A DNA stretch of 64,000 bases. Source: Oceanobacillus manasiensis. GTDB taxonomy: Bacteria > Bacillota > Bacilli > Bacillales > Amphibacillaceae. Positions 21,607 to 25,959 of this stretch are shown here, in pieces. Under the pieces are notes generated by a model that saw only the letters and a list, made by a program, of their open reading frames with translations, had not been told where the DNA came from and made no database searches. Each line of letters opens with the position of its first letter. Within the stretch, counting starts at the first letter, position 1. A program made the translations under genes and the position numbers. The DNA lies in the NCBI RefSeq assembly GCF_000724085.1, contig NZ_CCDL010000001.1:310001-374000 (forward strand). Direction: 5' to 3'.

Positions 21607-22353
21607 ATGTATGATGCAATCTTTTCTGTTGAGGGAGAGCCTTTTGTCATATTTAAGATATCCCACCTCGTTATGCTGTCCATCTATTTTGTTGGGTTTA
21701 TATTAATAATTTATTTTAACTCACTAAAAAGGCAACCCTTTTATAAACGTATCTACAATATAATAAGATGGTCCCTCTTTATTCTTTTAATCCTATCAGA
21801 AATTAGCTATCAAATTTGGTCAGCAAGCACTGGGATTTGGAATTTAAAGGAGCATATTCCCTTGCATTTATGTGGTGTTGCAAGCATTACAGCAGCCCTA
21901 ACGCTTTTACTACAAAATAAAATGCTTGCCACTTTAACTTTCTATATTGGCTTAGTACCAGCATTAATAGCGCTAATTACCCCAGATCTGCTATATAATT
22001 TTCCGCATTTTCGATTCTGGAAATTTTTTGTGCATCACATCGTTATTTCCTGGGCTAGCCTTTTTGTGATTGTAACTAGTTCTATCACTTTAAAATATAG
22101 ATCCCTGCTTATAAGCTATGGTCTACTACTAATTTATGCAGCTTTTATTGGGTTTATTGTTAATCCCATTTTAGATGTCAATTATCTCTATCTTAGGAAT
22201 ACCCCTATATCAAATACCCCTTTAAACTATTTCGGGGATGGCGTGCTATACTATGTAAATTTATGCCTTGTAGCTCTCACTGTTTTTTCTATTCAATGGG
22301 CAATCGTTCGTTATTTTCAAAATCGTAAGGACTCCGCCGAACCTTTGTTATGA
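21607..22353 (+). CDS. TIGR02206/YwaF-like integral membrane protein
   Basis: A 248-residue protein with about seven membrane helices. The family core IPLHLCGVASI with preceding Trp-rich loop (EISYQIWSASTGIWNLKEH) and the HFRFWKFFVHH segment fit the YwaF family, whose function is unknown. The ATG at 21607 is eight bases after AGGAGG; the ATG at 21601 is too close. The fabI terminator lies just upstream, so expression may depend on readthrough or an unseen promoter. Its stop overlaps the convergent small gene by 6 bp. Confidence 0.85.
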   Translation: MYDAIFSVEGEPFVIFKISHLVMLSIYFVGFILIIYFNSLKRQPFYKRIYNIIRWSLFILLILSEISYQIWSASTGIWNLKEHIPLHLCGVASITAALTLLLQNKMLATLTFYIGLVPALIALITPDLLYNFPHFRFWKFFVHHIVISWASLFVIVTSSITLKYRSLLISYGLLLIYAAFIGFIVNPILDVNYLYLRNTPISNTPLNYFGDGVLYYVNLCLVALTVFSIQWAIVRYFQNRKDSAEPLL

Positions 22354-22596
22354 GAGATCAGTTAAATCTAACCAGGATAACATTTCCGCTACAACCGTAT
22401 TTATCTTTTGATCGATGACATCTTCACCATATTTCTCTTTAGCCTGTGAAATACTTTTCATGACTTCTCCGTTAAACCCAATTACAGGATTATCTTTTTC
22501 AAGCTCATTAAATAGCTCAATCATAGCTTCGTTTCCCTCTTGTATACGGTCTATGGCATCACTATATTTTTGATAATCTTTCTCATTAGCTTTCAT
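22348..22596 (-). CDS. small acidic hypothetical protein
   Basis: 82 residues, mostly helical and acidic, starting MKANEKDYQKYSDAIDRI with GAGGTG six bases upstream; ATG/GTG starts slightly further upstream are possible. No membrane segment or known motif. Its 3' end overlaps the convergent ywaF-like gene. I do not recognise the family. Confidence 0.65.
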   Translation of the reverse strand: MKANEKDYQKYSDAIDRIQEGNEAMIELFNELEKDNPVIGFNGEVMKSISQAKEKYGEDVIDQKINTVVAEMLSWLDLTDLS

Positions 22597-22644
22597 TATC
22601 ATCACCTCTTTTTAGCATAACCAAAACTAGGCAATTTCATTTAG

Positions 22645-22674: not shown

Positions 22675-23454
22675 TTATTTTGTATAGTACCTTACATAAT
22701 TAGGATTCGCCGTAATATATAAGCCACTTTTTATTTGATACATATATCCTCCATCTACCGGGAACCTGTCCCGAATGACGGTAAATACTTCTCCTCTGTT
22801 TACAATGACGGCACGATCATTCCAGTTAGCAGTGTTATACGTCCAAAGAGAGTCTGTGACGATTTCAACAAATCCCTGTCCGGAACCTCCACCATCTTTC
22901 TTTACTAATCCAAGATAAGATGCAATCGAGTCAGCTAGTGCTTTTCCTGTATTATCCATTACCCCATTGTTCCGCATCTTTACAATATCTATGGTAGAAT
23001 CCATAAAACCGCCTTCAATAAGGATGGCTGGCATGTTGGATTCTCGTAGCATATGAAAGTTTGCCGACTTAACGCCACGATCTCGTAGTCCCATCGCAGT
23101 TACAATACTAGGATGAATACTTCGCGCCAGGTTATAACCTGAAGTAGAGCCAGGGTAATGATACGTCTCTGTCCCTGTCCATGTCCCCCATTGCCCTGTA
23201 TTGGCATTATGGTGGTACGATACTAAAATATCTGCATTAGCGTTGTTAGCAGTATTTGTTCGAGTCGTTAATGGTACATCTGTATTTCCACTAGGATCGT
23301 CTAACCTTACTACATTCGCATTCTCGTAACCTCCAAGGTAACGAATAGCAGCCGAAACTACTTTGTTGTTAAAAGTCCATTCTCTTTCACCAGCTGGGGA
23401 CCTTTTCCCCGGTGTGTTAATACCATGTCCTGCTCCAATTGCAATAATAGCCAT
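22675..23454 (-). CDS. N-acetylmuramoyl-L-alanine amidase (phage-type endolysin)
   Basis: Zinc amidase that cuts between MurNAc and the peptide stem. 259 residues from an ATG seven bases after GGAGGAG. The Amidase_3 domain fills about 1-175: His10 in GAGHG, Glu24, His81/82 in SYHHNAN and Glu147 in ILIEGGF fit the zinc and catalytic residues. A Gly-rich linker leads to an SH3-like wall-binding domain (about 195-259). There is no signal peptide, so it needs the holin to reach the wall, as phage endolysins do. It follows the holin and XhlA genes but is separated from them by a terminator and a dispersed repeat. Confidence 0.92.
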   Translation of the reverse strand: MAIIAIGAGHGINTPGKRSPAGEREWTFNNKVVSAAIRYLGGYENANVVRLDDPSGNTDVPLTTRTNTANNANADILVSYHHNANTGQWGTWTGTETYHYPGSTSGYNLARSIHPSIVTAMGLRDRGVKSANFHMLRESNMPAILIEGGFMDSTIDIVKMRNNGVMDNTGKALADSIASYLGLVKKDGGGSGQGFVEIVTDSLWTYNTANWNDRAVIVNRGEVFTVIRDRFPVDGGYMYQIKSGLYITANPNYVRYYTK

Positions 23455-23460
23455 AATAAA

Positions 23461-23669: not shown

Positions 23670-23894
23670 CTACTTTGCCAAATTATATTTTTTTAGTACT
23701 AGTTTTTGCTGTTCTCCTGTTGCTGTAAGGTAATTATTTTTAAACCACGACCACACAGAGACAGAGAAACATAACAGGTATGCTATCGTTTGCTCATCCA
23801 ACACGGGTATTGGCTGTAAGTTATAGTGAGTGAGCAGAACATTCGCCCAAGAAATCGCAAGCGCAATGGTTCGTACGACTGTCCCTCTATCCAT
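23670..23894 (-). CDS. Phage holin, SPP1/phi LC3 type
   Basis: A 74-residue membrane protein starting MDRGTVVRTIALAISWANVL, five bases after GAGGTGG. One hydrophobic segment near 5-24 and a second near 38-57 (YLLCFSVSVWSWFKNN) with the WFKNNYLT motif common to this holin family. Holins open the membrane so that the amidase reaches the wall. It lies between xhlA and the amidase gene, the order seen in PBSX-like lysis cassettes. Confidence 0.85.
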   Translation of the reverse strand: MDRGTVVRTIALAISWANVLLTHYNLQPIPVLDEQTIAYLLCFSVSVWSWFKNNYLTATGEQQKLVLKKYNLAK

Positions 23895-23920
23895 TTCTAC
23901 CACCTCTTCTCTACTATTAT

Positions 23921-24211
23921 TTATAAACCAAACGTCAACAGAAAAAATAGAATCTGACATACAAATGCCCCAATCATGGAGATTAGGGCGATTCCCAGGT
24001 GCCTTGAGCTTGTCTGGATAGTCTTAATCTTATTGTTGTTCTCAACGGAACGATAGTTTGCCTCTTCGGCCACTTTTTTTGTTTTGGTGAGTGTTTCTTT
24101 AACATCTTGTAACTGATCTATTTTCCCATTTAACTCAGCCAGCGACACCTTCACTTCCATAAGCACTGTCAAAAATTCCTTCGTATTTTCCTGTTCCTTT
24201 TGATTTAGCAT
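23921..24211 (-). CDS. Hemolysin XhlA family protein
   Basis: A 96-residue protein with a coiled-coil body (about 5-68; VKVSLAELNGKIDQLQDV) and one C-terminal membrane helix (about 75-95), the layout of XhlA/BhlA. The ATG follows GGGAGG by six bases; a longer frame to 24322 is unsupported. In PBSX XhlA works with the holin XhlB and the amidase XlyA to lyse the cell. 26 bp before the holin gene, so co-transcribed. Confidence 0.85.
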   Translation of the reverse strand: MLNQKEQENTKEFLTVLMEVKVSLAELNGKIDQLQDVKETLTKTKKVAEEANYRSVENNNKIKTIQTSSRHLGIALISMIGAFVCQILFFLLTFGL

Positions 24212-24322
24212 TCCCAACCTCCCTTCTTTGTATGGTGATGTTCCTAACAAGTTGCCTTCAACAGGAACACTTGTTCTATTCCTGTTAAATCTATTGTACA
24301 ACCCCTTTGTTATCTTTGTCAT

Positions 24323-24739
24323 CTACTGCGCAGAGTGTGTAAAATGTGCAATTTGACGAACAATATCATCCTTTATGTGATATACCTGTCTTCTCGATAA
24401 GCCCATATGCTCGCTTACCGCACTAATTGTCATTCCATCTAATATACATTCTAGGATAGCCTTTTCCCTTGGATCTTCAATGGCTATCATTCTCTCCTGG
24501 ATAAATAAAACCTTTCTCTCCAATTTTATAATCCATCCACTTTTCTTCTCTCTTCGCAATACTTCTTGACCAACAGGGTCACTTACTTTCCCTTTTGTTT
24601 TAGGAAGTGTCGATTCAATACCAGATGAAGCAACCAATTTGGATCCTATCTCTTCTTCTAACACGACCCTCTGCCTTTTAATTTCTTTTAACATCCAACG
24701 ATAGTCTTTTAAAGTACGCTCAATCTGTTTTTCGTTCAT
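24323..24739 (-). CDS. ArpU/RinA/Xpf-like phage transcriptional regulator
   Basis: 138 residues starting MNEKQIERTLKDYRWML, nine bases after GGGGG. The first two thirds are charged helices; the last 50 residues form a sigma-region-4-like helix-turn-helix (EDPREKAILECILDGMTISAVSEHMGLSRRQVYHIKDDI). Proteins of this type switch on late or lysis genes in Gram-positive phages. It precedes xhlA by 111 bp in the same direction and diverges from the Xre repressor, so it is the likely activator of the lysis genes. Exact family (ArpU or Xpf) is uncertain. Confidence 0.8.
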   Translation of the reverse strand: MNEKQIERTLKDYRWMLKEIKRQRVVLEEEIGSKLVASSGIESTLPKTKGKVSDPVGQEVLRREKKSGWIIKLERKVLFIQERMIAIEDPREKAILECILDGMTISAVSEHMGLSRRQVYHIKDDIVRQIAHFTHSAQ

Positions 24740-24923: not shown

Positions 24924-24935
24924 GAACGTTTGTTC
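24924..24935. promoter_or_regulatory. LexA (SOS) box core
   Basis: GAACGTTTGTTC matches the palindromic core GAAC-N4-GTTC of Bacillus LexA/DinR boxes exactly. It starts three bases beyond the -10 of the lysis-side promoter, where bound LexA would block initiation. Confidence 0.7.
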
Positions 24936-24937
24936 CT

Positions 24938-24966
24938 ATATTATATTTCTAAAACAGAAATGTAAA
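24938..24966 (-). promoter_or_regulatory. promoter of the regulator/lysis transcript with palindrome in the spacer
   Basis: TTTACA (24961-24966), 17 bp and TAATAT (24938-24943) on the minus strand; a TATAAT at 24940-24945 gives 15 bp. The spacer holds the palindrome ATTTCT-AAAAC-AGAAAT (24945-24961), a likely Xre operator; a half site recurs at 25006-25012 in the xre promoter. Confidence 0.6.
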
Positions 24967-24993: not shown

Positions 24994-25023
24994 TTGTTTC
25001 GCAATTAGAAATAATGTTATGAT
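24994..25023 (+). promoter_or_regulatory. promoter of xre
   Basis: TTGTTT (24994-24999), 18 bp and TATGAT (25018-25023), 30 bp before the xre start. Divergent from the lysis-side promoter 28 bp away. Confidence 0.55.
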
Positions 25024-25053: not shown

Positions 25054-25395
25054 GTGAAATTAGGGGAAAGAATTATCCAATTGCGAGAGAGACAAAACTG
25101 GAGCCAACGAGAACTCGCCAAACGTATTCAATTAAATGTGAGCGTAATGAATCGAATTGAATTAGGGGAAAGGCCAGTTAAAGACCATGAACTAGGCCGC
25201 ATCGCCACAGTACTAGAAGTAACGACAGACTACCTTCTTGGGAGGTCCGAAAATCCAGCTAGGAGTGAAAAGGAAGATTTCGAAGCATTTCGCAATGATC
25301 CCGCACTTGAAAGATGGTATAAGACGCTACCACAAAATAGTGAAGAGGATCTACGCAGGTTAAAAAGGATTTGGGAAGCATTTAAAGAAGAATAG
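25054..25395 (+). CDS. XRE family phage repressor
   Basis: 113 residues from a GTG nine bases after AAAGGG. An N-terminal Cro/CI helix-turn-helix (about 3-60: WSQRELAKRIQLNVSVMNRIELG, LEVTTDYLLG) is followed by an acidic tail without the self-cleaving protease domain of CI or LexA. Inactivation would therefore need another factor, and an ImmA-type protease is encoded next. This resembles the Xre-XkdA and ImmR-ImmA pairs of PBSX and ICEBs1. Confidence 0.88.
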   Translation: MKLGERIIQLRERQNWSQRELAKRIQLNVSVMNRIELGERPVKDHELGRIATVLEVTTDYLLGRSENPARSEKEDFEAFRNDPALERWYKTLPQNSEEDLRRLKRIWEAFKEE

Positions 25396-25503
25396 TAGGA
25401 CTTAGCAGAGATCCTTAGCTGATGATTAGGTGTACAAATAGCGGTGCACCTCCTTTTATAAACCAAACACGAACATACATTCTATTTATGGGGAGGTATT
25501 CCT

Positions 25504-25959
25504 TTGTTCTACACTAGAACGGAAACATTTATAAAAGACCTCTTGCTGTCTGTTAACATAAAAAAGCCTGCAGACTTAGGGATTTACACTATGGCGGAAG
25601 CACTCCAAATTTCGGTACATCCATGGGAGTTTGGAAGCGAAGCAGTAAGCAGGGATGGGAAATACATTATTTTCTTAAATGAACAAAAAAATGAAAGAGT
25701 TCAGTGGCAAGAATTCACGCATGAAGTGGCTCATATAATGTGGCATGTAGGAAGGCAGGAGTTATTACCACCAAGCTTTGTTGAATTACAGGAATGGCAG
25801 GCAAACTATTTCAGCTGCCACCTTTGTATCCCAACGTTTATGCTCGAGAAGATTACGATAAAACTGACCCCCCATAACCTAATGGAACTGTTTAACGTGG
25901 AGTATAGTTTTGCCTATAAACGAATGGAGATGTTGGAGAATAAGAGAGCGAATATTTAG
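25504..25959 (+). CDS. ImmA/IrrE family metallo-endopeptidase
   Basis: 151 residues from a TTG seven bases after GGGGAGG. The zinc motif HEVAH is at 73-77 within EFTHEVAHIMWH, and Glu97 in QEWQAN is the likely third ligand. Members cut Xre-type repressors to derepress phage or ICE genes. It follows xre by 108 bp. The pair forms a self-contained induction switch. Confidence 0.9.
   Translation: MFYTRTETFIKDLLLSVNIKKPADLGIYTMAEALQISVHPWEFGSEAVSRDGKYIIFLNEQKNERVQWQEFTHEVAHIMWHVGRQELLPPSFVELQEWQANYFSCHLCIPTFMLEKITIKLTPHNLMELFNVEYSFAYKRMEMLENKRANI

Follow-up and report, generated by a model that had tools for sequence, protein, structure and literature searches.

ImmR/ImmA of ICEBs1 and Xre/XkdA of PBSX, both from Bacillus subtilis, each consist of a repressor and a downstream ImmA-type metalloprotease and respond to DNA damage, and the locus described here is built likewise. 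For ICEBs1, activation of ImmA has been described as RecA-dependent or RapI-dependent, and the accessible part of that report (PMC11841131) describes no LexA site, whereas a LexA-type box precedes immA in our locus. The PBSX gene xkdA, which encodes an ImmA homologue, was listed among LexA/SOS genes in work on B. pumilus (PMC3896406); since LexA control of xkdA has already been reported, the principle is not new. ImmA homologues are established as anti-repressors for ImmR/ImmA and for MpaR (PMC6872733). The Listeria monocin (F-type tailocin; CI-like repressor, MpaR) carries F-type tail genes, its induction is linked to SOS, and it has a holin-lysin pair and a repressor-metalloprotease pair in common with our locus (PMC6872733, PMC7076858). 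However, the monocin repressor is reported to autoregulate the repressor-protease pair, and our locus is without the tail genes. In GIL01 of Bacillus thuringiensis and in CTXphi, LexA acts on the element as a direct repressor and does so jointly with a phage protein (PMC4551915, PMC12637031). GIL01 gp7 binds LexA itself, whereas the partner in our locus would be a distinct DNA-binding repressor that has a predicted operator of its own. In phage 186, LexA represses the gene of the anti-repressor Tum, as we predict for immA here; the accessible part of the same source describes no LexA site at the target promoter of phage 186, whereas our locus has a LexA box at its promoter P1 (PMC12637031). 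A first-pass annotation of this DNA had remarked that known prophages usually rely on either LexA or an Xre-type repressor. This is partly right, but xkdA as a LexA/SOS gene (PMC3896406) and LexA acting with a phage protein in GIL01 and CTXphi (PMC12637031) count against it. ImmR/ImmA, MpaR, xkdA, GIL01 and Tum of phage 186 each supply one part separately. In the literature searched, in which subscription papers were largely absent, we found no description of an effector promoter that combines LexA with the repressor of the element itself while LexA also acts on the anti-repressor gene. Tum of phage 186 is not known to be an ImmA-type metalloprotease.

The window, i.e. the whole 64-kb stretch of DNA analysed, contains the locus between tRNA/rRNA genes and fabI (Table 1). 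On the P1 side lie a 53-aa ORF, a regulator gene and the genes of an XhlA-like protein, a holin and an amidase; on the divergent side lie xre, a hairpin and immA. As expected of an Xre/ImmA module, an HTH_3 repressor gene is followed by a gene for an M78/IrrE-type metalloprotease, and an operator motif is present at the divergent promoters, this last point holding at the level of the motif. The holin-endolysin cassette of an F-type tailocin is also present, and no tail genes were found between the regulator and fabI in the window. Genes for head, tail, integrase or replication functions were not recognised in the module. Since none for head, integrase or replication were recognised around it either, an active prophage was rejected, and the prophage setting assumed by the first-pass annotation had to be given up. 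Judged by gene content, the locus is a lysis-only form of an F-type tailocin-like locus, fixed near fabI.

Relatives of the locus differ in what lies between regulator and lysis genes. The nearest named relative, Oceanobacillus jordanicus, has the same gene order and a regulator that is 86% identical. Virgibacillus loci have the same regulatory head, with fabI at the far end in several cases. V. chiguensis (G138) encodes a siphovirus-type tail set of tail tube, chaperone, tape measure, Dit and Tal between regulator and lysis genes, with no head set recognised in the locus, and V. salexigens has lysis genes only. An intermediate form (L076, in G140) has a pectate-lyase-like protein of 542 aa in this position and no tail set. 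A Virgibacillus-type locus also occurs in a record titled Roseburia sp. 1XD42-34 (L103, NZ_QWLJ01000028.1), which the genome search placed in the same genus group and which is probably a mislabelled genome.

Table 1. Features of the lysis locus, in window coordinates
Feature	Position	Strand	Remarks
N-acetylmuramoyl-L-alanine amidase (endolysin), Amidase_3	22675..23460	-	Pfam 1.7e-33; phrog_435 endolysin 3e-52
SPP1-type holin	23670..23960	-	Pfam Holin_SPP1 4e-17; NCBIfam TIGR01592 above cut-off; start codon uncertain
XhlA-like holin-associated protein	23921..24211	-	phrog_689 3.7e-8; Pfam XhlA 0.003, below cut-off
LexA box GAACACTTGTTC	24265..24276		Exact; just downstream of P2, ahead of xhlA-like gene
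Promoter P2, ATGACA-18-TACAAT	24293..24322	-	At 3' end of regulator gene
Late-gene regulator, phrog_1058/phrog_36 type, C-terminal HTH	24323..24739	-	Family matches
Small ORF, 53 aa	24720..24881	-	First gene after P1, overlaps regulator start; conserved WVVS..R.D.R.G.LSPI.RS.Y...LF.KGAGF-type sequence in 10 loci
LexA box GAACGTTTGTTC (minus strand GAACAAACGTTC)	24924..24935		GAAC-GTTT-GTTC; covers expected P1 start site
Promoter P1, TTTACA-17-TAATAT	24938..24966	-	-35 at 24966-24961, 17-bp spacer, -10 at 24943-24938; drives small ORF and regulator, lysis genes probably via read-through
Predicted Xre operator O1, ATTTCT-N5-AGAAAT	24945..24961 (core 24946-24960)		Perfect palindrome in P1 spacer; kept in 10/10 loci
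Probable xre promoter, TTGTTT-18-TATGAT, extended TG	24994..25023	+	Read from sequence
Second predicted Xre operator, TTTCTAATTGCGAAA on minus strand	24997..25011		1 mismatch; overlaps -35 and spacer of xre promoter; shuffle expectation 0.008
Xre-type repressor (HTH_3)	25054..25395	+	Domain match
Terminator-like hairpin 3' of xre	25428..25451	+	Hairpin and T-rich sequence here in most related loci
LexA-type box GAACATACATTC before immA	25471..25482		One mismatch; same form as own recA box
ImmA/IrrE-type metalloprotease, Peptidase_M78, HE..H motif	25504..25959	+	Pfam 5e-15; motif conserved in alignment

The P1 promoter, the palindrome in its spacer and the LexA box had all been placed correctly in the first-pass annotation. 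The palindrome has one base in common with the -35, and in the window the -10 has an alternative reading, TATAAT after a 15-bp spacer; other species have TTGACA-17-TATGAT/TAATAT at the homologous positions. Counting alone does not make the LexA box significant. Two exact matches to GAAC-N4-GTTC occur in the 64-kb window, where 0.84 would be expected, and two or more turn up in 22 of 100 shuffles; both matches (at 24265 and 24924) fall inside the lysis module. The whole genome has 38 such sites and 46 of the reversed control, i.e. no over-representation, so counting was abandoned and conservation tests were used instead. These gave a clear result. In each of the 10 species that have the locus (one Oceanobacillus relative, the remainder Virgibacillus), the segment from the -35 (TTGACA/TTTACA) through palindrome and -10 to the LexA box aligns without gaps, and the distance between the centres of palindrome and LexA box is constant at 23.5 bp. 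The P1 block has a mean pairwise identity of 0.86; elsewhere in the intergenic region the value is 0.56, and the best other stretch of equal length reaches 0.67. Among loci collected via the regulator protein, an exact LexA box precedes the regulator in 11/11 loci with an adjacent xre, some of which are near-identical records so that the independent count is about that of the 10 species, versus 0/62 loci with the regulator elsewhere in prophages and enough upstream sequence. Conservation across the 10 species together with this difference puts the box far beyond chance, and a chance palindrome was rejected.

The host genome encodes LexA and carries LexA-type boxes at lexA (three), recA (GAACATTTATTC), uvrB (GAATATTTGTTC) and a Y-family DNA polymerase gene, the last of these being letter for letter the 12-mer found at P1. 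P1 has the GAAC-N4-GTTC core in its promoter region that marks an SOS-regulon member. The full consensus of Bacillales LexA is CGAAC-N4-GTTCG (PMC4551915), to which the P1 box (A-GAAC-N4-GTTC-C) does not conform. This is no bar to membership of the LexA regulon because the outer bases also vary in the recA and uvrB boxes of the same genome. From these matches we infer that LexA binds the boxes at P1, P2 and immA.

The palindrome in the P1 spacer is very probably the operator of the neighbouring Xre, since the same motif recurs in arrays ahead of related xre genes from different elements. Every locus has 2-4 copies of TTTCT-N5-AGAAA with at most two mismatches between xre and P1, compared with 0.2-0.5 in shuffled sequence. 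Before related xre genes with different neighbours, in G493, G532 and G197, 4-6 copies were found, often spaced by near 30, 23 and 30 bp. Operator-like sites were absent before the related Xre in G189 and L141, and G314 had a single weak one; the operator assignment therefore rests on close Xre relatives and G197. A stretch in the HTH domain, SVMNRIE, is invariant among the 10 Xre proteins. The LexA box and the palindrome always occur together at P1 in the related loci compared. The earlier suggestion that two repressors could sit side by side at P1 is supported by the paired sites, by the identity of the box with the host's own SOS boxes and by the operator-like behaviour of the palindrome, with the binding itself predicted from these sites.

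A LexA-type box, exact or with one mismatch, lies between xre and immA in all 10 loci. For a wider view, 299 genomes of the order were searched for ImmA-type genes, of which 70 were fetched; sampling was by similarity, so the survey speaks for the window's ImmA family and not for IrrE proteins at large. Within the 150 bp upstream, 65 of the 70 genes have a box with no more than one mismatch, 27 times exact, and 63 of the 65 boxes sit 25-75 bp ahead of the gene start. Shuffled sequence would give 2.5 such boxes (0.08 exact), and control windows from the same loci gave 40/831 (6 exact). Many of these loci have a terminator-like hairpin ahead of the box and TATAAT directly after it; an immA promoter was not obvious in the window sequence. 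One Listeria phage ImmA gene that was examined had no LexA box. Based on the boxes, we predict that immA production is itself part of the SOS response. The breadth of LexA boxes before ImmA-type genes was not found described in the literature searched, from which subscription papers were largely missing. These numbers also lend some weight to a rival scheme, in which Xre and ImmA alone decide, SOS acts via immA transcription and the LexA boxes at P1 and P2 merely cut basal leakage. The box before immA is far more widespread than the effector-promoter box, which is confined to this locus family. Against this scheme, the P1 box is exact, covers the start site in every one of the 10 species and is a better match than most immA boxes, and we consider it unlikely that Xre and ImmA decide alone.

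At P2, a LexA box is present and an Xre operator is absent. Should P2 be active in the absence of the regulator, removal of LexA would suffice for lysis. It could accordingly be argued that LexA alone decides lysis, with P2 and its box driving xhlA, holin and amidase directly and Xre governing only the regulator. The -35/-10 match of P2 and the exact LexA box, found in the window and in O. jordanicus, are consistent with this; three Virgibacillus loci (L073, L074, L077) have a one-mismatch GAAC-N4-GATC at the matching place. However, an ATGACA-N18-TGTANAAT-like sequence lies at the regulator end in most relatives, full prophages included, which fits a late promoter served by the regulator. We consider sole control by LexA even less probable than sole control by Xre and ImmA, and we regard P2 as a candidate regulator-dependent promoter. 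The 53-aa ORF, which overlaps the regulator start in all 10 loci, had no Pfam match and has a dN/dS of 0.24 versus O. jordanicus. A gene for a Mistic-family membrane-integrating protein (window 22348-22605) adjoins the amidase gene, as it does in O. jordanicus.

The module might also be a decaying tailocin remnant without present function, its sites being kept through recent common descent. The tail genes of V. chiguensis are missing in the window, and immA of V. salexigens (L082/L112) has an in-frame stop. Comparison with O. jordanicus speaks against decay. The genes for amidase, regulator, Xre, ImmA, holin and XhlA-like protein have dS of 0.4-1.2, near 1 for most of the module, yet their dN/dS is 0.04-0.16, and the promoter block is conserved well above its flanks. 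This purifying selection on six genes argues that the module is in use, and a functionless remnant is very improbable.

Taken together, we propose that the locus is a LexA-gated feed-forward AND switch for self-lysis, a reading to which we assign a probability of roughly 0.7. In the undamaged cell, Xre at O1 and LexA at the start site would jointly keep P1 off, while Xre would also occupy the other operators, at the promoter of xre itself, and LexA would also repress immA and sit at P2. Upon DNA damage, RecA would remove LexA, taking away the first lock at P1 and partly unlocking P2. The loss of LexA would also start transcription of immA from a separate promoter that lies beyond the xre terminator, and ImmA would build up and destroy Xre, opening the second lock at P1. 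Cleavage of Xre by ImmA is something we infer from the family and from the described anti-repressors (PMC6872733). P1 would then yield the regulator, the regulator would activate the late promoter P2, and P2 would supply the XhlA-like protein, holin and amidase that bring about cell lysis. This two-step layout would delay lysis and tie it to lasting damage. Several points count against this reading: the immA box of the window has one mismatch and no obvious promoter beside it, P2 lacks an Xre operator, and V. salexigens retains the double site at P1 despite the stop in its immA. The first-pass annotation had envisaged AND-type control in which damage removes LexA and ImmA removes Xre. Two locks at P1 are indeed predicted, but they would not answer to separate signals; given the LexA box before immA, which it had missed, LexA and Xre are not independent inputs. 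A third box lies at the downstream P2. One input acting on two locks in series would make a coherent feed-forward AND gate.

A broader generalization, on which we are evenly divided, is that Xre/ImmA elements of Bacillales sense damage mainly via LexA repression of the protease gene, and that the fabI-linked tailocin/lysis family adds LexA at effector promoters, giving a persistence-detecting AND switch kept by the host lineage as a stand-alone SOS-triggered suicide module. It is only partly clear how the damage signal gets to ImmA-type anti-repressors; the published routes include some that depend on RecA and some that sense ssDNA, among others. The LexA box at a nearly constant position before 65 of 70 ImmA-type genes in one order suggests a simple transcriptional route that is directly testable. 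The second, direct LexA lock at P1 predicts a measurable delay and a damage threshold ahead of lysis. A lysis-only locus also raises the question of what the lineage gains from damage-triggered lysis with no weapon to release.

Elsewhere in the host genome, intergenic LexA boxes precede uncharacterised genes at four loci (L011, L012, L033 and L036), among them two paralogues and, at L036, a double box; these are possible further SOS genes. At another locus (L038, G000:C4:160350-163350), a LexA box, GAACGTATGTTC, lies between a divergent sigma-region-4-like gene and genes for a YvrJ-family protein and an Amidase_2 protein, possibly a second damage-controlled lysis module of the same genome.
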